Part shown: piece by piece, positions 1,978 to 16,214 of the stretch
Position numbering within the stretch: position 1 is the first letter of the stretch
Layout of the letters: each line of letters starts with the position of its first letter
Source of the DNA: Thermoproteota archaeon
GTDB lineage: Archaea; Korarchaeota; JAOZGF01; JAOZFZ01
Direction: 5' to 3'
Assembly: GCA_027492035.1 (NCBI GenBank)
Contig: JAOZFT010000024.1
Span: 1 to 20,103, forward strand
Length of the DNA stretch: 20,103 bases
Program-made: the position numbers and the translations under genes
The notes under the pieces: generated by a model
Database searches by the model: none
Told to the model about the DNA's origin: nothing
The model's input: the letters and a program-made list of their open reading frames with translations, nothing else

Positions 1978-2256
1978 ATGACCGGAGAAAAAGAAAAGAA
2001 AGGTGTAAGTGAAGTTTCGAAAGCTGTAAAAGAAGTTTTTTATGGAATGGCTTCCCATGCAGTAGTTAGACAAATGATGAAGACAAGAATGTACCTAGAA
2101 CACTTGTTTATGTTAATAACACTGGGAGACATGCTTGGAATGCCAATACTTCCACCTTACTACTCACTTAAACTTCTACCTTATGCATTGCCTAACATAA
2201 AGACTTGGAAGAGAAGATTGTTCAAGGAAAGAGATGTAACAGATATGCTTTACTGA
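1978..2256 (+). CDS. Small membrane-associated protein, second paralogue
   Basis: This is a 92-residue protein from ATG 1978. An in-frame GTG at 1960 would add six residues, but GGGTG at 1965-1969 fits the ATG better. The N-terminus is charged (TGEKEKKGVSEVSKAVKEV) and probably helical. The C-terminal half matches the 1627 product nearly without gaps (GDMLGMPILPPYYSLKLLP against GDLIGIPLFSPIYKLKLLP), so the two arose by duplication. The stop at 2254-2256 is 17 bases before the first ArsA-like ATPase, placing it in the same operon. The hydrophobic stretch is short, so membrane insertion is likely but not certain. The function is unknown; a partner or substrate of the ATPases is the natural guess. 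Confidence 0.7.
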   Translation: MTGEKEKKGVSEVSKAVKEVFYGMASHAVVRQMMKTRMYLEHLFMLITLGDMLGMPILPPYYSLKLLPYALPNIKTWKRRLFKERDVTDMLY

Positions 2257-2273
2257 AAGAAAAGGCGAGAACA

Positions 2274-3284
2274 ATGACTTTGTCAATGAAGAAATACATA
2301 AATCAACACCCAAATTTAAGAGTGATTATTTACGCCGGTAAGGGGGGTTTAGGGAAAACTACTTGCAGCGCCGCGACAAGTTACTGGTACGCTAAACAAA
2401 ACAGGAAAGCATTATGTTTCAGTACAGATCCTCAAGCTTCATTAAGTGACATATTTGAAAAGGATTTATTTGGGAAAGGAGAGCAGAAATTAGCGGAAAA
2501 CCTTTTCGTTGTCGAAATAGATGCTGACAGAAAAATAACTGAATTCCAAGAAGAAGTTAGACAGAAAATAAGAGAAATGTACGGCATAGATGAAATACCT
2601 AAAGAGATAGATGAATATATAAGCACTTCATCTTACGAGCCTGCAATGCATGAAAGTGCAACTTACGACGCCATGGCTGCACTTTTAGCAAGTAAAAAAT
2701 ACGACGTGTATGTCTTTGACATGCCTCCGTTCGGCCACGGAGTTAGAATGATAAGTATGGCAACTATTTTAGATGTTTGGATTGATAAAATGGCTGAAGC
2801 TAGAAAGAAAGCAGCAGAGTATAAGGAAGCTGAAGCTAGGATTAAAGGAGTTTCAGCTGAAGCTGAAGATGCTGTGTTAAATGAATTAGATGAAATTAGA
2901 AGTAAACTTGACTTTTTTAGGGAAACATTAACGAATTCTGAAACAACTGCTTTTTTCATGGTTTTAATACCTGAAAAAATGGCTATTTTAGACACTGAAA
3001 GAGCACTTAAAATGTTTGAGAAACTGGGAATTAAATTAAGCGGAGTGATTGTGAACCAAGTTTACCCTGTTGAACTTCTTGAAAGGAAAGACTTAAGTGA
3101 GTTCCTAAAACATAGAATTGAAATGCAGCAGGGATACTTAAAGGAAATAAGTGAAAAATTTGGTGAACACGTCAGGGCAGTGGTGCCTATGTTCGAAAAG
3201 GAACCTAAAGGTTTGGAAATGATTGGAAGAGTTGCTGAACATTTATTTGAGAAACCTAACCTAGAAGTTTTAAAGAGGGTTTAG
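2274..3284 (+). CDS. ArsA/Get3-family ATPase, catalytically intact member of a pair
   Basis: This 336-residue protein belongs to the ArsA/Get3 (anion-transporting ATPase) branch of the SIMIBI NTPases. The deviant Walker A GKGGLGKTT is at residues 22-30. Switch I is DPQASLSD with the catalytic Asp at 52, and switch II is DMPPFGHGVR. A helical insert follows (about 185-235), then the family block VLIPEKMAILDTER and GVIVNQVYP. There is no CxxC zinc motif, so it is not a canonical Get3. ATG 2274 is chosen because AAGGCGAG precedes it and the frame upstream overlaps the previous gene. It is followed after two bases by a second family member, so a heterodimer is likely. No arsenite permease or arsR is nearby. 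Confidence 0.88.
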   Translation: MTLSMKKYINQHPNLRVIIYAGKGGLGKTTCSAATSYWYAKQNRKALCFSTDPQASLSDIFEKDLFGKGEQKLAENLFVVEIDADRKITEFQEEVRQKIREMYGIDEIPKEIDEYISTSSYEPAMHESATYDAMAALLASKKYDVYVFDMPPFGHGVRMISMATILDVWIDKMAEARKKAAEYKEAEARIKGVSAEAEDAVLNELDEIRSKLDFFRETLTNSETTAFFMVLIPEKMAILDTERALKMFEKLGIKLSGVIVNQVYPVELLERKDLSEFLKHRIEMQQGYLKEISEKFGEHVRAVVPMFEKEPKGLEMIGRVAEHLFEKPNLEVLKRV

Positions 3285-3286
3285 AA

Positions 3287-4309
3287 ATGAGTGAACAACA
3301 TGAAACTTTAAAAGATTTTTTAGGGAAGCACCCAACAGTGAAGTATTTATTTACTGGCGGTAAAGGAGGAGTTGGAAAAACAATTTCAGCAGCTGGTTTA
3401 GCTTATTACTTTGCCTCAGAAGGAGAGAAAGTCCTTTTAGCTTCATTAAACCCTGTACATTCACTTTCAAGTTTATTCGGTCAAGACTTAACAGGTGGTG
3501 CAATTAAACCTATTAACGGCATAAACAACCTTTACGCTATTGAAGTAGATATTCGGGAAAGAGTTAAGAAATACAAGGAACAGCTCTCGGAGAAATTAAT
3601 GTGGTTCATGAAATGGGCAGATATTCCATTAAAAGCTGAAGAATTCGTTGACATTGCTGCTACCAACCCTGCTTTTGAAGAAAGTGCAATGTTTGACAAC
3701 ACAATCGATATAATGTTGAAGGAAAGTGAAAATTTTGACAAAATAGTTTTTGACACTGCAGCAGTGGCTAATGCTGTTAGGCTTTTAGGTTTAAGCAAAA
3801 TATATGGTTTATGGCTTGGAAGAATGATTGAAAGCAGAAAAGAAGCTCTTTCTTTAAGAGTAAAGCTTTCATTCAGGAAGGAAAGAGTTATGGAGGAAGT
3901 TAAAAAGGACCCAATGATGAAGGATTTACTTGATATGAACGAAAGAATAAAGAAAGCAAGAGAAGTATTTAGTGACCCTGAAAAAACAGCTTTCTTCTTT
4001 GTAACACTACCTTTAGCTTTACCTATAGCAGTTGTTGAAAGGTTTATTAAAATGGTTCAAGGATTTGACATACCTACAGGAGGAGTGATTGTGAACGGTG
4101 TTTTAGAGAAAAAACTTGTCTCTGAGGGAAAGGCAACAGAGTACTTAATAAACAAGTTTAAAGAACAGCAGAGATACATGGAAATTATAAAAGAACGCCT
4201 CTGGCCAAGTGTGAGAGCAATTATTCCACTTTACCCAACTGAAATAATAGGGCTGGATATGGTGGGAAAAGTAGCTCAAGACATGTTAAACTGGAAACCT
4301 GAAGCCTAA
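3287..4309 (+). CDS. ArsA/Get3-family ATPase with degenerate switch motifs
   Basis: This 340-residue paralogue starts two bases after the preceding stop. It keeps the Walker A (GKGGVGKTI, residues 25-33). The switch I Asp is replaced by Asn 55 (NPVHSLSS instead of DPAHSLSD), and the switch II Gly-His is lost (DTAAVANAVRLL). In yeast Get3 the equivalent D57N change blocks hydrolysis while nucleotide still binds, so this subunit probably binds ATP but hydrolyses it poorly. The helical insert (about 180-230) and the downstream blocks FFFVTLPLALPIAVVERF and GGVIVNGV are retained. It is best read as the regulatory or structural half of a heterodimer with the 2274 product. There is no CxxC motif. 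Confidence 0.87.
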   Translation: MSEQHETLKDFLGKHPTVKYLFTGGKGGVGKTISAAGLAYYFASEGEKVLLASLNPVHSLSSLFGQDLTGGAIKPINGINNLYAIEVDIRERVKKYKEQLSEKLMWFMKWADIPLKAEEFVDIAATNPAFEESAMFDNTIDIMLKESENFDKIVFDTAAVANAVRLLGLSKIYGLWLGRMIESRKEALSLRVKLSFRKERVMEEVKKDPMMKDLLDMNERIKKAREVFSDPEKTAFFFVTLPLALPIAVVERFIKMVQGFDIPTGGVIVNGVLEKKLVSEGKATEYLINKFKEQQRYMEIIKERLWPSVRAIIPLYPTEIIGLDMVGKVAQDMLNWKPEA

Positions 4310-5589: not shown

Positions 5590-5805
5590 TTGAAAGAAAA
5601 AGTTACGATAAAGATACCTAAAGAACTTTACTTGAAGTTAAAAGCTATGATAAAAGGTACTGGGTTCTCCAGCGTCACAGAATTCATAGTTTTCACTATG
5701 AGAACAGTGGCTATGGGTGGTAAAATATCAGAAAAAGCAAAATTTAAGAAAGAGGAACTCAAAGAGATAAGGGAAAGACTGAGAAAATTAGGTTATCTTA
5801 AATGA
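5590..5805 (+). CDS. Ribbon-helix-helix DNA-binding protein
   Basis: This is a 71-residue CopG/Arc-type protein. Residues 3-9 (KVTIKIP) form the DNA-contacting strand, followed by helix 1 (KELYLKLKAMIKGTG) and helix 2 (SVTEFIVFTMRTVAM); the C-terminus is a charged helix ending RERLRKLGYLK. The start is TTG 5590, set by GGTGA at 5578-5582. Such proteins bind as dimers to inverted or direct repeats. It lies 88 bases upstream of the cysD start, and an inverted repeat (5844-5883) sits in that gap, so it is a good candidate for the local regulator. That link is inferred. Its own TATA box is unclear (TTTAAAAC near 5534 is one option). Confidence 0.8.
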   Translation: MKEKVTIKIPKELYLKLKAMIKGTGFSSVTEFIVFTMRTVAMGGKISEKAKFKKEELKEIRERLRKLGYLK

Positions 5806-5893: not shown

Positions 5894-6718
5894 ATGAATA
5901 GGAACCTAACTTACCTAGATGAATTAGAATCAAAAAGTATTTACATAATAAGGGAGGCATATAGGAGATACAGAGACAAATTAGCTGTCCTTGTTTCTTG
6001 GGGTAAAGATTCCACTACTCTTTTGTATTTAACTAGGAAAGCTTTCTTCGGCGAAGTTCCTATTCCTGTTATGCATATAGATACTTCTTATAAATTTAGA
6101 GAAATTTATGAGTTCAGAAATAGGTTAGTTAAGGAGTGGAACTTAAAGTTATTAATTGCAAAAAATGAAGAAGCCTTAAAACAGGGCATGAGCCCAGGAA
6201 AAGGAAGGTTTCAATGTTGCACAGCATTAAAGACACAGGCTTTGAAGCAAGCAATAAAGAAATTTAAACTTAAGGCTCTGCTTTTAGCTATACGGAGAGA
6301 TGAACATGGAATTAGAGCTAAAGAAAGGTACTTCTCTCCACGTGATTCGCATTTCAAGTGGAACTATTTAAGTCAACCTCCTGAACTTTGGGAGCAATTT
6401 AACCAAGTAACGGATGAAGAAACCCATGTCAGGGTTCACCCTATGCTTCACTGGCTTGAAATAGATATTTGGCGCTATATTCAAAGAGAAAAAATACCTA
6501 TTGTTCCTTTATATTTTTCTGGGGCGAGGAAGCTAGGGTATAGATACAGGAGCATAGGTTGCGAGCCATGCTGTATCCCTATCCCTTCAAATGCTAAGAC
6601 AGTGAAAGAGGTTATAGCTGAACTGGAAAGAACAAACGTCCCAGAAAGAGCTGGAAGAGCTCAAGACAAAGAGAAAATGTACATGATGGAAAAATTAAGG
6701 GCCCTGGGGTACATGTAA
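5894..6718 (+). CDS. cysD: CysD-like sulfate adenylyltransferase subunit 2 with Fe-S type cysteines
   Basis: This 274-residue protein belongs to the PAPS reductase/CysD superfamily of adenylate-forming ATP pyrophosphatases. CysD (with CysN) makes APS from sulfate and ATP. CysD features are the PP-loop SWGKDST (35-41), HIDTSYKFREIYEFRNR (61-77), RRDEHGIRAKER (134-145), HWLEIDIWRYI (186-196) and the terminal ERAGRAQDKE plus LRALGYM. Unusually, it also has C108-C109 in QCCTALK and C223-x2-C226-C227 in SIGCEPCC, matching the [4Fe-4S] ligand pattern (CC...CxxC) of APS reductases; E. coli CysD lacks these. ATG 5894 is chosen over TTG 5876 because GGAGTG precedes it. It overlaps the next gene by one base (TAATG). 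Confidence 0.85.
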   Translation: MNRNLTYLDELESKSIYIIREAYRRYRDKLAVLVSWGKDSTTLLYLTRKAFFGEVPIPVMHIDTSYKFREIYEFRNRLVKEWNLKLLIAKNEEALKQGMSPGKGRFQCCTALKTQALKQAIKKFKLKALLLAIRRDEHGIRAKERYFSPRDSHFKWNYLSQPPELWEQFNQVTDEETHVRVHPMLHWLEIDIWRYIQREKIPIVPLYFSGARKLGYRYRSIGCEPCCIPIPSNAKTVKEVIAELERTNVPERAGRAQDKEKMYMMEKLRALGYM

Positions 6719-6942
6719 TGCATGAAACAAGAACTAGGTCGTTAATTAAAGCTTTAACTTGGAGAGTAATTGGAATGTTTGTTTTAGGCAGTTTAGCATG
6801 GATTATAACTAACAACACTTTTCAAACTACCACTTTAACTGTTTCTTTTCATTTAGTTCAATTCACTCTCTACTACTTCCATGAAAGAATCTGGAATTAC
6901 ATTAAGTGGGGGGTAACTGATGGACAGAAAAAAGAAACGTAG
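6718..6942 (+). CDS. DUF2061 membrane protein
   Basis: This 74-residue protein matches the DUF2061 pattern: an N-terminal T-R-S-L-x-K-A-L-T-W-R (residues 5-15), a first membrane helix GMFVLGSLAWIIT (19-31), a second hydrophobic segment (about 39-53), and the signature YYFHERIWNYIKWG (52-65). The start ATG overlaps the cysD stop (TAATG), so the two are translationally coupled. DUF2061 proteins commonly accompany sulfate-activation genes; the biochemical role is not known, and a link to sulfate or sulfonate handling at the membrane is inferred. Cytoplasmic and external faces cannot be assigned with confidence. Confidence 0.85.
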   Translation: MHETRTRSLIKALTWRVIGMFVLGSLAWIITNNTFQTTTLTVSFHLVQFTLYYFHERIWNYIKWGVTDGQKKET

Positions 6943-6986: not shown

Positions 6987-7028
6987 ATGTTGAAGCTAAA
7001 ACACAAAAGACGGAGGCTAGGGATATGA
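6987..7028 (+). CDS. Possible 13-residue leader peptide before cysN
   Basis: An ATG at 6987 behind GGAGG (6971-6975) opens a 13-codon basic peptide ([13 protein letters not shown]). Its TGA (7026-7028) overlaps the cysN start codon as ATGA. The arrangement would couple cysN translation to the mini-gene. However, cysN has its own GGAGG at 7012-7016, and so short an ORF can arise by chance. Confidence 0.2.
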
Positions 7029-8217
7029 ATATAGTTATTGTTGGACATGTAGATCATGGTAAATCAACTTTAATAGGGAGACTTCTTTATGACACGGACT
7101 CTATACCTGAGCAAAAACTGGACGAAATAAAACAAACCTGTGAAGCATTAGAGCGTAAAATGGAATTTGCTTATGTAGTTGACGCCTTAGAAGAAGAAAG
7201 AAACCGTGAAATGACAATTGACACAACCCAAACATTTTTTAGAAGCAAAAAAAAAGTTACACCATTATAGACGCCCCAGGTCACAAGGAATTCCTAAAAA
7301 ACATGGTAACTGGTGCTTGCCAAGCAAATGCAGGATTACTTATAGTTGATGTAGAGAAGGGGGTGCAAGAACAAACAAAAAGACACGCTTACATTCTGAA
7401 ACTCTTAGGAATAAATCAACTTATAGTAGTAATTAACAAAATGGATTTAGTTAATTTCAGCAAAAAGAAGTACGAAAAAGTCAAAAAGGAAGTGTTGAAG
7501 TATTTAAAAGAAATTGGAACCACTCCCAACTTTATTATACCGGTTTCTGCCTATTATGGAGACGGTGTAACTAAAAATTCGGAAAGAATACCCTGGTATA
7601 AAGCTGAAACCGTCATAGACGCCTTAGATGCATTGAAAGAGCCTTTTAAAACTTATGATTTCAGACTCCCAATCCAAGACATTTACAAACTTAGTAACAA
7701 AAGAATCTATGTTGGCAACATACTGTCCGGAATGGTTAAGGTGGGGGAAAACGTAAAAATTTTTCCTTCAGGTGAAGAAGCAAAGATAGAGCAGATAATT
7801 ACTTTTGAAGGCAAAATGAAAGAAGCTGAAAAACCTAAAGCAATAGGGGTAACTTTGAACAAGCAAGGGTTCTTAAGAGGAAACGTAATAACTAAAGGGA
7901 AAAAACCCATTGTCACTAACGAAATAGAACCAACTGTTTTCTGTTTACTAAATGAAGTAAAGGAAAAAGAGCAATACATTTTCAGGTGTGTAACCCAGGA
8001 AACTAAATGTAAAATTGAGAGAGTAGTGGAGAAAATCGATGTTAACACTTTAGAGAAAATAAAAAACACAACCGCTTTAAAGGAAACAGAAGTTGGAAAA
8101 GTAAAGATTCACTTAAACAAACCAGTAGTTGTGGAAAAATTCGAAAACTTACCTGAACTAGGCAGGTTTATACTTGAAAAAAACGGAGAAATAGTTGCAG
8201 GTGGAATAATAACATGA
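7025..8217 (+). CDS. cysN: CysN-like GTPase (sulfate adenylyltransferase subunit 1), one frameshift
   Basis: This is an EF-Tu-like GTPase that would drive APS synthesis with CysD. Visible parts: G1 GHVDHGKST (residues 7-15), switch [12 protein letters not shown]3 DAPGH, G4 NKMD and a G5-like SAY, followed by two beta-barrel domains (from about [15 protein letters not shown]). The frame breaks at an A9 run (7247-7255). Frame 0 stops at 7268-7270, whereas a one-base gain or -1 slip gives [16 protein letters not shown] and runs to TGA 8217. The restored protein is about 397 residues, shorter than E. coli CysN (about 475). The ATG follows GGAGG, and the stop overlaps the next start (ATGA). Sequencing error, true mutation and slippage are all possible. 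Confidence 0.8.
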
Positions 8218-8909
8218 TAATTCTTGCTTTAGATGGTTTAGAATATAAATATGTGAAAGAGTTCAAATGTAAAAATTTAATGCAGAAATACTGTGGTAAA
8301 ACAGACATATCTGAGTTTTCAGAACCAAGAACAGTAGTTATTTGGTCATCATTCCTTGCAGGGAAAAACCTGGAAAAAGAGATACTTAAAACAAAAAATT
8401 TTTGGGAGTTTAAACTAAACCCAAAAGAAACCTTTTTTTCAAAGTTTAAGAAATGGAAAGCAATAGATGTTCCAGGACTTACCTATAAGTCAGAAAAACA
8501 TAAAAAAGAAAGAGAACTTCTAAAAAAATTTTTCAATGGAGAAATCACTATAAGGGAATATGATAAAGCAGCTTTTAAACACCATAAAGAGAATAAGGCT
8601 GAATTCTTTAATGCAATAAAAGAGAATTACCAAGTTACAATGGGTTACTTCGCCTTAGCTGACACAATCGGGCACTTAAGTTTTGGGGTTAAACCGAAAA
8701 TGAAGATAGTTTACAAAGAACTTGACAAAATAGCTGAGAAAATTGGGGAAAATAACAAACTACTAATAATTTCTGATCATGGAATGAAAGCTGTTGGAAG
8801 ATACGGAGACCATTCTAATTACGGATTCTGGAGCACAAATTTTTTTGCAGACCTGGACAGGCCGAAAATAACTCAATTCAGGAAAATAATTGAGCTCTGT
8901 AAAGGTTAA
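8214..8909 (+). CDS. Alkaline-phosphatase-superfamily phosphodiesterase/phosphatase
   Basis: This 231-residue protein has the metal-site pattern of type I phosphodiesterases / nucleotide pyrophosphatases: ALDG (Asp 7), the nucleophile Thr 40 in EPRTVVIWSSFLAG, D150-x3-H154 in ADTIGH, D188-H189 in ISDHGM, and His 200 in GDHSNYG. All expected two-metal ligands are present, so it should be active. It is short for the superfamily because the cap region is small. No signal peptide is seen, so it is cytoplasmic. The ATGA overlap with cysN makes it part of the sulfur operon. A nucleotide by-product of sulfate activation (APS, PAP or similar) is a plausible substrate, but that is inference from position. 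Confidence 0.8.
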   Translation: MIILALDGLEYKYVKEFKCKNLMQKYCGKTDISEFSEPRTVVIWSSFLAGKNLEKEILKTKNFWEFKLNPKETFFSKFKKWKAIDVPGLTYKSEKHKKERELLKKFFNGEITIREYDKAAFKHHKENKAEFFNAIKENYQVTMGYFALADTIGHLSFGVKPKMKIVYKELDKIAEKIGENNKLLIISDHGMKAVGRYGDHSNYGFWSTNFFADLDRPKITQFRKIIELCKG

Positions 8910-8996: not shown

Positions 8997-10826
8997 TTGT
9001 GCGGAATAGCTGGCTACTACGGTTTAAACAATAAAAACTTACTGGAAAAAATGTGCAAAGTAATTAGACACAGGGGACCTGACGATGAAGGATACTACAC
9101 ATGTTCAAAAATAGGTTTATGTAACAGACGTTTAAGCATAATAGATGTGAAAGGGGGACATCAACCTATACATAACGAAGACGGAACAATCTGGATAACG
9201 TACAATGGCGAAATATACAACTACAAAGAGTTAAGCAGGGAGTTAGAAAAGAGACATAATTTTTACACTAACTCAGACACTGAAGTAATTGTTCACTGTT
9301 ACGAAGAATATGGGGAAGAATTTGTCAACAAATTAAACGGAATGTTTGCTTTCGCTATATGGGACTCAAATAAGGAAGAACTGCTTATTTACCGTGACCG
9401 TTTCGGAATAAAACCACTATATTATTACTATAACGGTGAAAAACTCTTTTTCGGTTCAGAAATAAAAGCAATACTTCAAAGTGAAGAAGTGGAAAGAACC
9501 CCAAACGACAAAGTAATTTATGAATTTCTTGTCCACGGTTGGCACGACCATACAGAAGAAACCTTCTTCAAAGGAGTAAAGAGATTAATGCCAGCACATT
9601 ACCTAAAAGTAAACAGTAAAGGATTAAAAATTAGAAAGTACTGGGAAATAAAGAAACTAAACCAAAAAATAGAGTCCAAAGAGGAGAAAGACAAAGAACT
9701 AACTGAAAAATTCTACAACTTATTCCTAGATTCAGTAAAGAAAAGACTTATAAGTGAAGTCCCTGTAGGAACGTGTTTAAGCGGCGGAATGGATTCTTCA
9801 TCCATTGTATGCATAATAAATAAACTCTTAAGGAAAGGAATAAGCAAAGAAGTTATAGGGGAGAAACAAAAAACTTTTTCAGCAGTCTATAAAGAAAAAG
9901 AAGCAGATGAAACCCCCTATATTGAAGAAGTTATTAAGTTCACAAACTCAGAAAAAAACTTCACCCACCCAAACGCTGAAGAACTCTGGAAAGAACTTGA
10001 CAAAATAATATGGTACCAAGAAGAACCTTTCGGAAGCACAAGCATTTATGCTCAATGGTGTGTAATGAAAGAAGCAAGCAAAAAAGTTAAAGTAGTACTT
10101 GACGGGCAAGGAGGAGACGAATTACTTGCAGGATACACTCACTACTACATATACTTCCTAAAAGATTTACTGAAACAAAAAAGAATCATTCAGTTCATAA
10201 AAAACTTCTTCTTAGGTTTAGACCTCTTCTACAAAGACATACTGCACCACCTACTTAACAAAAGAAAAGAGAAAAAACTTATACAGGAAATGTTGAACAA
10301 AGAATTCATAAAGAAATATAAGGGTGAAGTTAAAACACCATGGAAAATCAAAAACTTAACAACTTACCTTCTAAATTCATTAACACAAATAAGTATACCC
10401 CACCTTTTAAGGTATGAAGACAAAAACGCAATGGCACACTCTATAGAATCAAGGGTACCTTTCCTAGACCACAGACTCGTAGAATATGTTTTCAACACAC
10501 CGGAAAACCAAAAAATAAGAAACGGATGGACAAAGTACATTCTGAGAAAAGCCATGAAAGGGGAGATACCCGAAAAAGTAAGGAAAAGAAGGTCAAAACT
10601 AGGATTTGCAACTCCGGAAGTAAAATGGCTCAGGGAATTAAGTAAAGAAATAATTGAAACCTTCGAAACAGAAACGTTCAAACAAAGAAAGTACTTTAAC
10701 CAAGAAAAGGTAACTAAAAATTTTGAGGAGTTTGTGAAGGGGAAATTTACACTGCAACACTCAATATTCTGGCGAGTAGTAATACTTGAAAAATGGCTAA
10801 ACCTATTCATAGATGAGAAAAAGTAA
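8997..10826 (+). CDS. asnB: Asparagine synthetase (glutamine-hydrolysing)
   Basis: This 609-residue enzyme has two domains. The N-terminal glutaminase begins MCGIAGY: Cys 2 is the nucleophile after Met removal, which fixes TTG 8997 as the start, behind GGAG at 8986-8989. It also contains RHRGPDDEG (24-32), RRLSIID (44-50), YNGEIYN (69-75) and SDTE (93-96). The synthetase domain has the PP-loop LSGGMDSSS (261-269), then VVLDGQGGDELLAGY and a C-terminal ESRVPFLDH. It would amidate Asp to Asn with Gln and ATP; archaeal homologues also amidate other carboxylates, including sugar acids, so the substrate is not certain. A second, related gene follows in tandem after 66 bases. A candidate TATA (TTTATAA) lies at 8947-8953. 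Confidence 0.9.
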   Translation: MCGIAGYYGLNNKNLLEKMCKVIRHRGPDDEGYYTCSKIGLCNRRLSIIDVKGGHQPIHNEDGTIWITYNGEIYNYKELSRELEKRHNFYTNSDTEVIVHCYEEYGEEFVNKLNGMFAFAIWDSNKEELLIYRDRFGIKPLYYYYNGEKLFFGSEIKAILQSEEVERTPNDKVIYEFLVHGWHDHTEETFFKGVKRLMPAHYLKVNSKGLKIRKYWEIKKLNQKIESKEEKDKELTEKFYNLFLDSVKKRLISEVPVGTCLSGGMDSSSIVCIINKLLRKGISKEVIGEKQKTFSAVYKEKEADETPYIEEVIKFTNSEKNFTHPNAEELWKELDKIIWYQEEPFGSTSIYAQWCVMKEASKKVKVVLDGQGGDELLAGYTHYYIYFLKDLLKQKRIIQFIKNFFLGLDLFYKDILHHLLNKRKEKKLIQEMLNKEFIKKYKGEVKTPWKIKNLTTYLLNSLTQISIPHLLRYEDKNAMAHSIESRVPFLDHRLVEYVFNTPENQKIRNGWTKYILRKAMKGEIPEKVRKRRSKLGFATPEVKWLRELSKEIIETFETETFKQRKYFNQEKVTKNFEEFVKGKFTLQHSIFWRVVILEKWLNLFIDEKK

Positions 10827-10892
10827 TTTTAAATTAAAAAGTGTTGGAAGTTAAGATTAAACTGCAATCCTGAACATGAAGGGTTTTTGTTT

Positions 10893-12824
10893 ATGTGCGG
10901 CATATGCGGCTTCGCTTTTGAAGATAAAAAACTAATAAAGGAAATGTGCAATATTTTTAAAGCATAGGGGACCTGACGATAAGGGGTATTTCCTAGATAA
11001 AGGAATATCTTTAGGGAACACAAGATTAAGCGTAATAGATTTAGAAACAGGGAAACAACCTATTTACAATGAAGACGGTTCAATGGTGATTGTGCAAAAT
11101 GGAGAAATTTACAATTATAGACAAATCAGGAAGGAACTTATCAATTTAGGGCATTCATTTTACACAAAATCAGATACAGAAGTTATACTCCACGCTTATG
11201 AGGAATGGGGAACCAAAGCACTTAATAAACTCAATGGAATGTTTGCATTTGCAATATGGGACTCCAACAGAAAGGAATTATTCCTAGCCCGAGATAGATG
11301 CGGAATAAAACCTTTATATTACACCTTAACAAAAAACAAAACCCTTCTTTTCGCTCAGAAATAAAAGCCTTACTTTTATATGAAAAAATTAAACCTAAGC
11401 TAAGTTTAGAAGGACTTCACTATTACTTAAACCTCCGATTCTTACCTGGAGAAGTAACAATGTTTAAAGGAATCAAGAAACTTTTACCTGGCCATTACCT
11501 CTTATATAAATTATCAAGCAAGAACATGGAAGTAAGTAAGTATTGGGAAGTAAAGGTTTCACCGGAGGAGCATACCGAAAGTTTTTTTGTTAAGAAGTTA
11601 AGGGAAATTTTGAAAGAATCTGTAAAAAGACACCTTATAAGTGACGTCCCTGTTGGAATATATCTTTCTGGAGGCATAGACAGCAGCTCAATAGTAGCTT
11701 TTGCTTCGCAAGTGTCAGAAGAACCCGTTAAAACTTTTACAATGGGATTCAATGAACCCTCAGATGAATTAAGAGACGCTAAACAAGTGTCAGAATTTTT
11801 TGAAACTGAACACTATGAATTAGTAATAGACTCTGATTTGATGAAAGATTACCCTGCTATGATATGGTACGCTGACACACCGAAAAGAAACCTTTACCCT
11901 TACTACATCGCCAAAGTTGTAAGGAAACATGTAAAAGTAGTTCTTGGAGGACTTGGAGGTGATGAACTTTTCGCAGGTTACGAATGGAAATACCAATTCG
12001 CAGAAGATACTACGGAAGAGCGTTCAAAAATACCAAACAACCTCAAATTCTCGCTTAGAAAAGAAATTCCAGAATTCATAAAGTATGTAACAAGGTATGG
12101 TTCACTTCATGAAATAGACCTTATCCACAATTTAAGGAGAGCAGCATACATAGACAACGATGTCAAACAGTACCTGCTCATAATGAGCTTAGATGAAGTC
12201 TATGAAAATAATTATTTGAAAGAGAAAATATATGGCGAAGAAATTCAGAAAATTAAATTACCGCAACTAGAAGATATATTTAAGCCATTTTTTGAAGATA
12301 ATAATCTTAACTTAATTGATAAAATTCTTCTTGCAGATTTTAAAATTAAAATGGTGGATGATTTTCTTTTTGTGGAGGATTCAATGTCCTCCGCTAACTC
12401 CTTAGAGTCAAGAGTACCTTTTTTAGACAAAGAACTTGTGGAATTCGTTTTTACTATACCATCAAGGTTTAAATACAGAGAGGGAAGAGGGAAATATATT
12501 TTTAAGAAAGCAATGCAGGGAATATTACCTAAAGAAGTAATAAAGAAAGAAAAACAAGGATTTAGCAGTGACGTAGTAATTAGATTTGAAAGAGAAATAC
12601 GGGAAATAGCAAAACAAATTCTAATGAATGGATACTTAGTAAAGGATAATTTAATTAAGGGGGGCTACATAGAGAATATACTTAATTACAGAACTTCTCG
12701 CAGCTTAACTAAGCATTACATTACAGTATGGAATCTCTTAACCCTTGAAATATGGTATAGAATGTACATTAAACAAGGAAAAATTCCAAAACCTCTTACA
12801 CTAAATAAATTGGAAGCAATTTAG
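10893..12824 (+). pseudogene. Second asparagine synthetase-like gene, interrupted by two frameshifts
   Basis: Three stretches in two frames together encode one class II glutamine amidotransferase/synthetase. The first (from ATG 10893, MCGICGF) ends in a stop at 10964-10966. One base too many around 10954-10961 (T5A3) is then corrected, and the sequence resumes as KHRGPDDKGYF through NGEIYNY and SDTE to a TAA at 11362. One base missing near 11353-11355 restores SEIKALL and continues to TAG 12824 with LSGGIDSSS and VVLGGLGGDELFAGY. The lesions cancel, so the span is exactly 644 codons. All catalytic motifs, including Cys 2, survive, which argues for recent decay or sequence error. It is clearly diverged from the upstream copy. 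Confidence 0.82.
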
Positions 12825-13751: not shown

Positions 13752-14528
13752 TTGAAGATAAAAAACTTTGAAAAATTAATAGTTCCTGAGAGAGAACCTA
13801 AACCTAGAAGTAAAGGAATAACTATGGTGTTAGATAAAAACCTTGGGTTAAGAGGAATAAGAGACTTAGTTGAAACTGCCGGGGAGTACATAGACATTAT
13901 GAAGTTTGGTTGGGGCACAACACGGATGTTACCCAAGAGATTATTAAAGAGTAAAATAAGGATTTTAAGGGATAATGAGATAGAGGTATGCAATGGAGGA
14001 ACATTAACAGAATTTGCATTTTTACAAGGTAAATTTAAGGATTACCTAGGTGAAATGGCAACAATGGGTTATACGGTGGTTGAGATTTCAGATGGAACCA
14101 TAAATATGGGCTATGAAGAACGTTTGGAACTTATAACCCAAGCAAAAGAGCAAGGGTTTAAAGTTGTTACTGAAGTAGGCAAGAAAAGCCCTTCAGAAGA
14201 CTCCAAACTAACTGTACAAAAAAGGGTAGAACTGATAAAGAGAGACTTAAAGATGGGAGTAGATAAAGTTGTTTTAGAAGCTAGAGAAAGTGGAACTGTA
14301 GGAATTTTCGACAATAGGGGGGAAGTAGTTATTCCGAGGGTGTTATCCATAATTAAAAGCGTAAATGTTAATGATTTAATATTTGAAGCCCCTAAAAAAA
14401 AGCAACAAGTATATTTAATCTTAAACATAGGTCCTAATGTGAATTTAGGAAACATCAGCCCTTTAGATGTGATATCCGTTGAAACATTAAGGAGGGGACT
14501 TAGAGGAGATACATTTGGTAAGGTGTAA
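13752..14528 (+). CDS. comA: Phosphosulfolactate synthase
   Basis: ComA adds sulfite to phosphoenolpyruvate to form (R)-2-phospho-3-sulfolactate, the first step of archaeal coenzyme M synthesis, in the cytoplasm. The 258-residue length is close to the M. jannaschii enzyme, and the TIM-barrel family blocks are present: GITMVLDKNLGLRGIRDLVE (23-42), YIDIMKFGWGTTRM, NGGTLTEFAFLQG, VVEISDGT, VVTEVGKKSP and VVLEARESGT. The start is TTG 13752 behind AGGGGAAGGG. It is the first gene of a four-gene operon, and the comB start lies inside its 3' end (14 bases of overlap). Confidence 0.93.
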   Translation: MKIKNFEKLIVPEREPKPRSKGITMVLDKNLGLRGIRDLVETAGEYIDIMKFGWGTTRMLPKRLLKSKIRILRDNEIEVCNGGTLTEFAFLQGKFKDYLGEMATMGYTVVEISDGTINMGYEERLELITQAKEQGFKVVTEVGKKSPSEDSKLTVQKRVELIKRDLKMGVDKVVLEARESGTVGIFDNRGEVVIPRVLSIIKSVNVNDLIFEAPKKKQQVYLILNIGPNVNLGNISPLDVISVETLRRGLRGDTFGKV

Positions 14529-15171
14529 AATAAGTTTCAATGTGAAAAGTATCGGGAAAGATGACACTGTTGTGGTTGTTGATGTTTTACGTGCTACTAG
14601 CACTATTGTTACAGCTTTGGCCAATGGTGTAGAGGAGATCATTCCTGTAAGTTCTATTGATGAAGCTTTTAAACTTAGAAGGAATGGTTATTGCTTAATT
14701 GGGGAAGAAAAAGGTGTGAAAATAAAAGAATTTGACTTTAGTAATTCACCTACTGAAATAATGCAAAATCCTTGTAAAAAAATCGCTTTAAAAACTACAA
14801 ATGGAACAAAAATTATTAAGGAAGTAGAGGAAAGGACAAACCAGGAAGTATTTATGGGCTCAACATTAAACCTTTCTTACTTAGCTGAAAGACTTAAACA
14901 AACAGAAAAAATAAACATAATAGCTGTGGGAGGGAGGAAGGGATTCATAGAAGATTTAGCAGTAAGTATAGCTTTATTTACTAAATTGCAGAATTTACCT
15001 TTGAAGAAGGAAATTGTTAAGGAATTAATTATTAATTCAGAAGCAGCGAAACATTTAGCTAAAATAGGTTACTGGAAAGACGTTGAATTTGTTCTTCAGA
15101 TAGACCTATACCCAATTGCCCCTATTCTAAAAAAGGGAAAAATAGTTTTGGAGCAAAGCAGCTACAAGTGA
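14515..15171 (+). CDS. comB: 2-phosphosulfolactate phosphatase
   Basis: ComB removes phosphate from 2-phosphosulfolactate to give sulfolactate; it is magnesium-dependent and has its own fold. The 218-residue protein shows the family signature VDVLRATSTIVTALANG (22-38), GEEKGVKIKEFDFSNSPTE, ALKTTNGTKII and GGRKGFIEDLAVS. The TTG start at 14515 overlaps comA by 14 bases and follows AGGAG (14503-14507) at a seven-base spacing, so translation is probably coupled. The stop is six bases before comD. The next enzyme of the pathway, sulfolactate dehydrogenase (ComC), is not in this window. Confidence 0.92.
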   Translation: MVRCKISFNVKSIGKDDTVVVVDVLRATSTIVTALANGVEEIIPVSSIDEAFKLRRNGYCLIGEEKGVKIKEFDFSNSPTEIMQNPCKKIALKTTNGTKIIKEVEERTNQEVFMGSTLNLSYLAERLKQTEKINIIAVGGRKGFIEDLAVSIALFTKLQNLPLKKEIVKELIINSEAAKHLAKIGYWKDVEFVLQIDLYPIAPILKKGKIVLEQSSYK

Positions 15172-15177
15172 ATAGAA

Positions 15178-15669
15178 ATGGGGGAAATTGACAAGGAAAT
15201 AGTTAAGTTTTTGGTGGAGTCAGGTATAGACTTCGTTTGCAGCGTGCCATGTATGCTTTTGAAAGGAATACTGGAAGAAATAGAGAAGACAAACTTGAGA
15301 CATGTTAGAGTCAACAGGGAAGAAGAAGGAGTGGGAGTATGCGCAGGAGCGTACTTGGCCGGTAAGAAACCAGCATTAGTAATTCAAAATTCAGGTTTAG
15401 GTAACTCAATAAATGCTTTACTTTCCCTTACAAAGTTTTATCGTTTAGGGTTATTTATTTTAATGAGCCATAGAGGAGATAAATACGAAAAAATTAAAGC
15501 GCAGGTTCCAATGGGAGAGGCAACACCCAAATTGTTAAAGCTCTTAAACATCGAATATGCCAAAGTTACGGAGCCAAACCAATTGTTTCTGATAAAAAAC
15601 CTTGTTAAGAAAGCATTTAAAGAAGAAGACATTAAAGCTGTTTTACTTTCAAGGTCGTTATGGCTATGA
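15178..15669 (+). CDS. comD: Sulfopyruvate decarboxylase, alpha subunit
   Basis: ComD and ComE together form the thiamine-diphosphate enzyme that decarboxylates sulfopyruvate to sulfoacetaldehyde. The 163-residue ComD is the pyrimidine-binding (PYR) half. VNREEEGVGVCAGAYLAG (45-62) carries the glutamate that activates the cofactor, followed by ALVIQNSGLGNSINALLSL and MSHRGD. The length and the split into two subunits match M. jannaschii; in some other organisms the two halves are fused. It starts six bases after comB and overlaps comE at its 3' end, so the pair is probably made in equal amounts. Confidence 0.92.
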   Translation: MGEIDKEIVKFLVESGIDFVCSVPCMLLKGILEEIEKTNLRHVRVNREEEGVGVCAGAYLAGKKPALVIQNSGLGNSINALLSLTKFYRLGLFILMSHRGDKYEKIKAQVPMGEATPKLLKLLNIEYAKVTEPNQLFLIKNLVKKAFKEEDIKAVLLSRSLWL

Positions 15670-16214
15670 AGAGAATAGATGTTATAAGGGAAATTTCTAA
15701 AAGGAAAGGATTAATAATTTGTAATTTAGGATTTCCTAGTAGAGAACTTTATAGCATAAAGGATAAAAATACAAATTTTTACATGTTAGGCTCAATGGGA
15801 ATGGCTAGTTCCATAGGGTTAGGAGTTGCATTGTGCCAAAAAGAAAAAGTTTACATTATTGAAGGTGACGGTTCAATACTTATGAACTTAGGGTCCCTAG
15901 CCACAATAGCAGCCTACGCAACACCTAACTTAAACTTAATAGTAGTGGACAACGGGGTTTACGGTTCCACAGGAAAACAACCAACACACACAGCTAAAGT
16001 GGCAGATTTAAAAAAGATAGCTAAAGGAGCAGGAAATAAAAAGGTTTTTGAAGTAAAGTCGATAGAGCAACTTAAAGAAGCCTTAGAACAAGGTGGGCCT
16101 CTTATTATTGTAGCAAAAGTAAACCAAGAATCAAAAAAGGTACCTGAGGTACCTCTTGAAGCTGAGTTTATAAAGAAAAGATTTATGAACGCTATTTATG
16201 AATTAAATAAGTAA
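15660..16214 (+). CDS. comE: Sulfopyruvate decarboxylase, beta subunit
   Basis: This is the pyrophosphate-binding (PP) half of the ThDP-dependent decarboxylase, 184 residues. The ThDP/magnesium motif is GDGS (69-72), with the partner D97-N98 in IVVDNGVYGSTGKQ; GSMGMASSIGLGVAL (44-58) is the preceding conserved helix. It overlaps comD by 10 bases from ATG 15660. An in-frame ATG at 15666 gives a classical ATGA overlap and a better distance from AAGGT (15651-15655), so the true start may be two residues later. The 3' end overlaps the convergent oxidoreductase gene by 12 bases. Confidence 0.92.
   Translation: MAMKRIDVIREISKRKGLIICNLGFPSRELYSIKDKNTNFYMLGSMGMASSIGLGVALCQKEKVYIIEGDGSILMNLGSLATIAAYATPNLNLIVVDNGVYGSTGKQPTHTAKVADLKKIAKGAGNKKVFEVKSIEQLKEALEQGGPLIIVAKVNQESKKVPEVPLEAEFIKKRFMNAIYELNK

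Follow-up and report, generated by a model that had tools for sequence, protein, structure and literature searches.

The gene at positions 5894 to 6718 on the forward strand of the window, the whole 20,103-nucleotide stretch of DNA analyzed here, encodes a 274-aa CysD-type ATP sulfurylase catalytic subunit that carries the four-cysteine set of adenosine 5'-phosphosulfate (APS) reductases (APRs). Family models from Pfam and NCBIfam, structure matching, and a phylogenetic tree support this assignment. In our judgment, the protein is probably the CysD of a GTP-driven ATP sulfurylase and belongs to a subfamily with a putative, non-redox [4Fe-4S] cluster at the APR site. CysD together with CysN would form APS from ATP and sulfate, driven by GTP. 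C108, C109, C223, and C226 would hold the [4Fe-4S] cluster at the cluster site of APS reductases, probably without redox chemistry in the CysD family. Next to the nucleotide and sulfate pocket, the cluster would tie the CC helix to the loop that precedes the C-terminal part. There it would shape APS binding and perhaps turn the enzyme into a sensor of oxygen or iron supply.

The reading frame opens with an ATG at 5894. Pfam PAPS_reduct matched the 274-aa protein with 140 bits, and its score for NCBIfam PRK05253, a CysD subfamily model, was 324.7 bits (cut-off, 195). Scores for the narrower CysD models fell below their cut-offs (TIGR02039, 247.5 vs 396.6; PRK12563, 244.7 vs 413), as did those for the APS/PAPS reductase models (TIGR02055, 56.4 vs 235.3; PRK02090, 75.3 vs 154 bits). 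The active site was compared in an alignment that took in CysD of E. coli, Sinorhizobium, Tsukamurella, and Smac51. The P-loop SxGKDS (S35, G37, K38, D39, and S40) was invariant, these canonical CysDs included, and R134-R135-D136-E137, R141, K143-E144-R145, S148, R150, W156, and E164 were likewise common to all rows. A preliminary description of this DNA had called the protein CysD-like outside its cysteine motifs, including the C-terminal ERAGRAQDKE, and the C-terminus is indeed CysD-like. Judged by these sequence features, the window protein is the catalytic subunit (CysD) of a GTP-dependent ATP sulfurylase. Homology predicts that the four-cysteine CysD works with CysN in GTP-coupled APS synthesis.

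C108, C109, C223, C226, and C227 are the sole cysteines of the window protein. The first pair (C108-C109; 6215 to 6220, forward strand) lies in the context QCCTALK, and the second (C223-x-x-C226, followed by C227; 6560 to 6574, forward strand) lies in SIGCEPCC, both contexts as previously described. The codons of C223, C226, and C227 occupy 6560-6562, 6569-6571, and 6572-6574, so that the interval 6215-6574 spans exactly the first (C108) to the last (C227) cysteine. Scanning 84,980 species genomes returned 213 relatives, and the best 80 of the 213 loci, the closest relatives, were retained. The resulting family alignment held 82 members, the window protein included, with a median pairwise identity of 67% and a minimum of 50%. 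Conservation in close homologues had been set beforehand as one of two points on which the idea of an APR-type cluster could fail; in this set, drawn from the best 80 of 213 relatives, C108, C109, C223, and C226 were Cys in 82 of 82 members. C227 was Cys in 73 of the 82 and T or V in the other nine, and any other column held Cys in at most 26 rows. Four invariant cysteines across 82 homologues at this median identity are more than chance would give.

The placement of these cysteines was compared in an alignment of the family with APRs and canonical CysD. CC and GCxxC shared columns with four APRs, and the family profile aligned both cysteine pairs with those of the P. aeruginosa APR (PDB 2goy). 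The second such point, how far apart the cysteines lie in a structure, was approached by aligning the protein with APR by structure and by profile. Published motifs found only in APRs are CCXXRKXXPL and SXGCXXCT (PMC3125206). In the window protein, the first reads CCxxLK rather than CCxxRK, and the second reads RSIGCxxC (APR, SxGCxxC). The loop before CxxC is short in the family and in APRs, whereas canonical CysD is about 25 residues longer there, before GCxxL. E. coli CysD reads HT and GCxxL at the cysteine columns, and all four cluster cysteines are absent from a Niveispirillum CysD and from E. coli PAPS reductase. Alignment, profile, and invariance therefore bear out the earlier claim that C108-C109 and C223/C226 (plus C227) lie where APRs bind a [4Fe-4S] cluster. 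By homology with APRs, C108, C109, C223, and C226 are the putative ligands of such a cluster. No reductive nucleophile is kept in the family, and the predicted cluster is therefore likely structural and active-site-shaping.

An AlphaFold2 model of the window CysD had a mean pLDDT of 82 and a pTM of 0.82, with pLDDT 84 to 89 in the cysteine-bearing blocks and below 50 at residues 139-142, 161-174, and 258-274. Its best structure match was the CysD of 1zun (Z 22.7, rmsd 3.5, 196 residues), nearly tied with APR 2goy (Z 21.4, rmsd 2.4, 200 residues). A phylogeny had been suggested as a check, and it placed the family beside canonical CysD and far from the reductases. In the IQ-TREE result, the reductases, represented by few and long-branched rows, split from all CysD-like rows with a support of 100/100. 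The four-cysteine proteins grouped together (91/87) and adjoined canonical CysD plus the Niveispirillum protein (93/80); support for the family with canonical CysD was 95/92 once one row, G029, was set aside. The deepest branch on the CysD side was a 270-aa archaeal CysD-like protein without cluster cysteines (locus L004, 1021-1830, minus strand; 31% identity).

CysD of the known CysDN complexes (E. coli; P. syringae, 1zun) has the same fold, the same P-loop, the same RRDE..RAKER..S.R..W signature, the same C-terminal ER.GR..D..., and the same CysN partner. E. coli CysD is 38% identical to the window protein and keeps just the first Cys of CxxC, whereas the window family has both CC and CxxC and lacks the canonical insert before CxxC. 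Assimilatory APRs (P. aeruginosa 2goy and M. tuberculosis 7lhr) share the CCxx-K and SxGCxxC columns, the short loop before CxxC, and the PAPS_reduct fold. However, they are about 21-24% identical to the window protein and fall in the separate, fully supported clade. APR carries its nucleophile in a C-terminal ECGLH and lacks the ATP-using SxGKDS P-loop; the window family shows the reverse. The Niveispirillum CysD is cluster-free, 48% identical, and compact without the canonical insert; it has neither CC nor CxxC and falls with canonical CysD. On its plasmid (L099, 3054-4801), the gene immediately upstream is APR-like and has both CC and CxxC.

The gene order in the window is a ribbon-helix-helix (RHH)-like protein, cysD, DUF2061, cysN with a broken frame, and a phosphodiesterase, all on the forward strand. 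The RHH-like protein (5590 to 5805; 71 aa, TTG start) matched Pfam RHH_1 at E=0.0012, just under the cut-off, and a relative (L043:3244-3510) scored 26.4 bits, above the cut-off. In many archaeal loci, relatives of this protein (cluster 3/20) directly precede cysD, and it is probably a local regulator. Between cysD and cysN lies a small membrane protein of the DUF2061 type (6718 to 6942; Pfam DUF2061, 46 bits), in the slot held by a TauE/SafE transporter in other loci, judged by gene order. The CysN-like GTPase, the regulatory subunit, extends from 7025 to 8217, with CysN/PRK05506 and EF-Tu family matches on both of its pieces. Its open reading frames (7025-7270 and 7303-8217) are split by a frameshift at an A9 run (7247-7255), and the break may stem from misassembly, from slippage during transcription, or from a genuine mutation. 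A CysN-like GTPase had been said to follow cysD. One is present downstream, but it is not adjacent, with DUF2061 in between, and its frame is broken. The GTPase motifs are invariant among the CysN partners of the family.

Neighbors were counted in 40 well-flanked family loci as genes in the same-strand run with cysD, using clusters of raw open reading frames, so that the counts are lower bounds. cysN was present in at least 33 of the 40 loci, a PF01663 alkaline-phosphatase-superfamily phosphodiesterase in at least 25, and a TauE/SafE transporter and an RHH protein in at least 10 each. cysC and cysH were not among the recurrent neighbor clusters of these loci. In contrast, an APS kinase gene was nearby in six of the eight annotated canonical CysD loci opened (L098, L100, L102, L103, L104, and L148), so that the family operon differs from the canonical one in having no cysC or cysH and, usually, a phosphodiesterase. 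The window phosphodiesterase (8214 to 8909) matched Pfam Phosphodiest with 28.5 bits and has a predicted nucleotide pyrophosphatase/phosphodiesterase (NPP) fold; its model (pLDDT 92) matched 2gsn with a VIA Z of 19.2 and an rmsd of 2.8 over 203 residues. The metal-ligand-like residues D7, T40, D150, H154, D188, H189, and H200 are invariant. By its alkaline-phosphatase-superfamily metal ligands and modeled fold, this protein is an NPP-type phosphodiesterase. Other arrangements were also seen. Loci L040 and L060 carry a shortened second CysD-like frame (about 200-216 aa) as the third same-strand gene after cysD, between two sulfatase genes. A Mesorhizobium plasmid (L150, 575-3897) has cysD without cysN, beside a DUF2309 protein and a proton-conducting membrane subunit.

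The later steps of sulfate assimilation were searched for in the window genome, which is 93% complete. It has no second PAPS_reduct protein beside this CysD and no CysH/APR homologue, and the search returned no APS kinase, no sulfite reductase, and no Sat-type ATP sulfurylase. One APS kinase candidate at 19.7 bits was rejected because AAA_18 matched this P-loop kinase better. Across the family, a full-length APS kinase was found in 5 of 46 genomes, a further strong CysH/APR-like protein, as we read the matches, in 9 of 46, and sulfite reductase in 10 of 47. At the thresholds used, both APS kinase and a strong CysH/APR-like protein were missing from 33 of the 46 family genomes. Although many of the genomes are incomplete and metagenome-assembled, the absence of APS users is too general for such gaps to explain. 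Dissimilatory AprA (TIGR02061) gave no match, with the controls silent too, and reductases of other families may be present. A sulfotransferase partner was rejected, with Sulfotransfer_3 proteins in 2 of 48 family genomes, both of which carry APS kinase. The window itself holds comA, comB, comD, and comE (13752-16214), which belong to a sulfite-dependent route to sulfoacetaldehyde and coenzyme M; the genome has no match to MCR alpha and no known sulfite source. Because just 3 of 48 family genomes carry comA, we rejected coenzyme M synthesis as what the pathway generally serves.

The preliminary description had also raised an enzyme joining activation and reduction, which would activate sulfate and then reduce APS to sulfite in one protein. 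Such an enzyme would explain the absence of other APS-using enzymes in most family genomes, with neither CysH/APR nor APS kinase in the window genome or in those 33 relatives. It would feed sulfite to ComA for coenzyme M-type sulfonates in the window genome, where comA lies in the same window, and some operons carry transporters of the TauE/SafE type, whose name refers to sulfite export. The APR-type cysteines are present, but the nucleophile is not: the ECG of the APR C-terminal ECGLH occurred in 0 of 82 members, any Cys after residue 230 occurred in 1 of 82, and C227, the sole spare cysteine close to full conservation, is not invariant. No thioredoxin-like or ferredoxin gene was found among the recurrent neighbors, the operon has no recurring reductase partner, and few family genomes have ComA. 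In APRs, the cluster is not known to serve as the electron donor, which also counts against this idea. The missing nucleophile, the tree, and the HMM scores led us to reject a reductase, and we regard the bifunctional enzyme as very improbable.

It is unlikely, if less strikingly so, that the cysteines hold another metal (e.g., zinc) or form disulfides, giving a structural site without iron-sulfur. Motif identity alone does not separate Fe-S from Zn; however, tandem CC plus CxxC at this site is what marks the iron-sulfur cluster in the homologous APRs (PMC3125206), and disulfides are unlikely because many family members come from anoxic habitats. A sulfur-transfer enzyme like TtuA/NcsA, a PP-loop ATPase with a [4Fe-4S] cluster that thiolates a nucleotide, would share the PP-loop fold (Z 12 to 13) and an ATP-using P-loop. 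CysD is far closer, at 35-48% identity to the aligned canonical and sister CysDs and Z 22.7, and with a CysN GTPase in the operon and four invariant cysteines, not three, this assignment is extremely improbable. The frameshift in cysN and the lack of a known APS-using enzyme in the genome could also mean that the pathway is decaying in the window organism, with cysN a pseudogene and CysD a relic. Yet runs such as the A9 at the break are where slippage and assembly errors usually occur, CysD and what remains of CysN are intact and conserved, relatives share the gene order, and APS users are missing as a rule across the family, making decay improbable. The motif position, total conservation, tree, fold, and CysD active-site residues instead support a sulfurylase with a structural cluster, the other possibility raised beforehand.

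For a sulfurylase of this kind, the fate of APS is a matter of speculation. The neighboring pyrophosphatase-fold phosphodiesterase may use or remove APS, an idea suggested because most family genomes are without APS kinase and CysH/APR homologues. Tentatively, and at less than even chances, the iron-sulfur CysD, CysN, and the phosphodiesterase would constitute a new APS pathway, neither PAPS-dependent sulfation nor sulfate reduction, in which the phosphodiesterase-fold enzyme uses APS directly. APS would then be a sulfuryl or adenylyl donor, or a signal that is turned over. If true, this pathway would operate in numerous archaea and bacteria lacking APS kinase, APS/PAPS reductase, and, mostly, sulfite reductase.

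The four-cysteine CysD is a widespread and so far seemingly unremarked branch in mostly uncultured, anaerobic lineages. Among the best 80 of 213 relatives, the archaeal carriers included Aenigmatarchaeota, Woesearchaeota, Diapherotrites, Micrarchaeota, Methanofastidiosum, Methanoperedens (L066), ANME-2 (L085), Methanophagales (L090), and Thermoplasmata, and the bacterial carriers included Omnitrophota, Planctomycetota, Spirochaetota, and deltaproteobacterial groups. In the open-access literature, we found no description of a CysD with an iron-sulfur cluster. The passages of PMC6286981 on CysD of ANME and Methanoperedens discuss it as an ordinary CysD and leave the cluster cysteines unmentioned. 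A search of viral contigs found no family CysD; matches from phage records were 37-44% identical, among them one partial CysD (L101) without CC. CysDN in ANME, Methanoperedens, and DPANN has hitherto been read as an indication of assimilatory sulfate reduction. This use as an assimilation marker needs rereading because most carriers examined are without the following steps.

According to the statements citing Kopriva 2002 in PMC1266029 and PMC3125206, the presence of the cluster in APS/PAPS reductases marks those that use APS. With the cluster motif in an APS-making sulfurylase, the cluster/no-cluster split would run on both sides of the family. This suggests that the cluster tunes APS binding, not reduction, and the four-cysteine CysD would offer a natural test of the purpose of the APR cluster in a protein doing no reduction.

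Other features of the window were also recorded. Two adjacent ArsA-type ATPases lie at 2205-4309, preceded by two small, similar-looking proteins (1627-2256). Tandem asparagine-synthase-like genes occupy 8997-12824, the second of which is seemingly split into overlapping frames (11083-11364 and 11298-12824).
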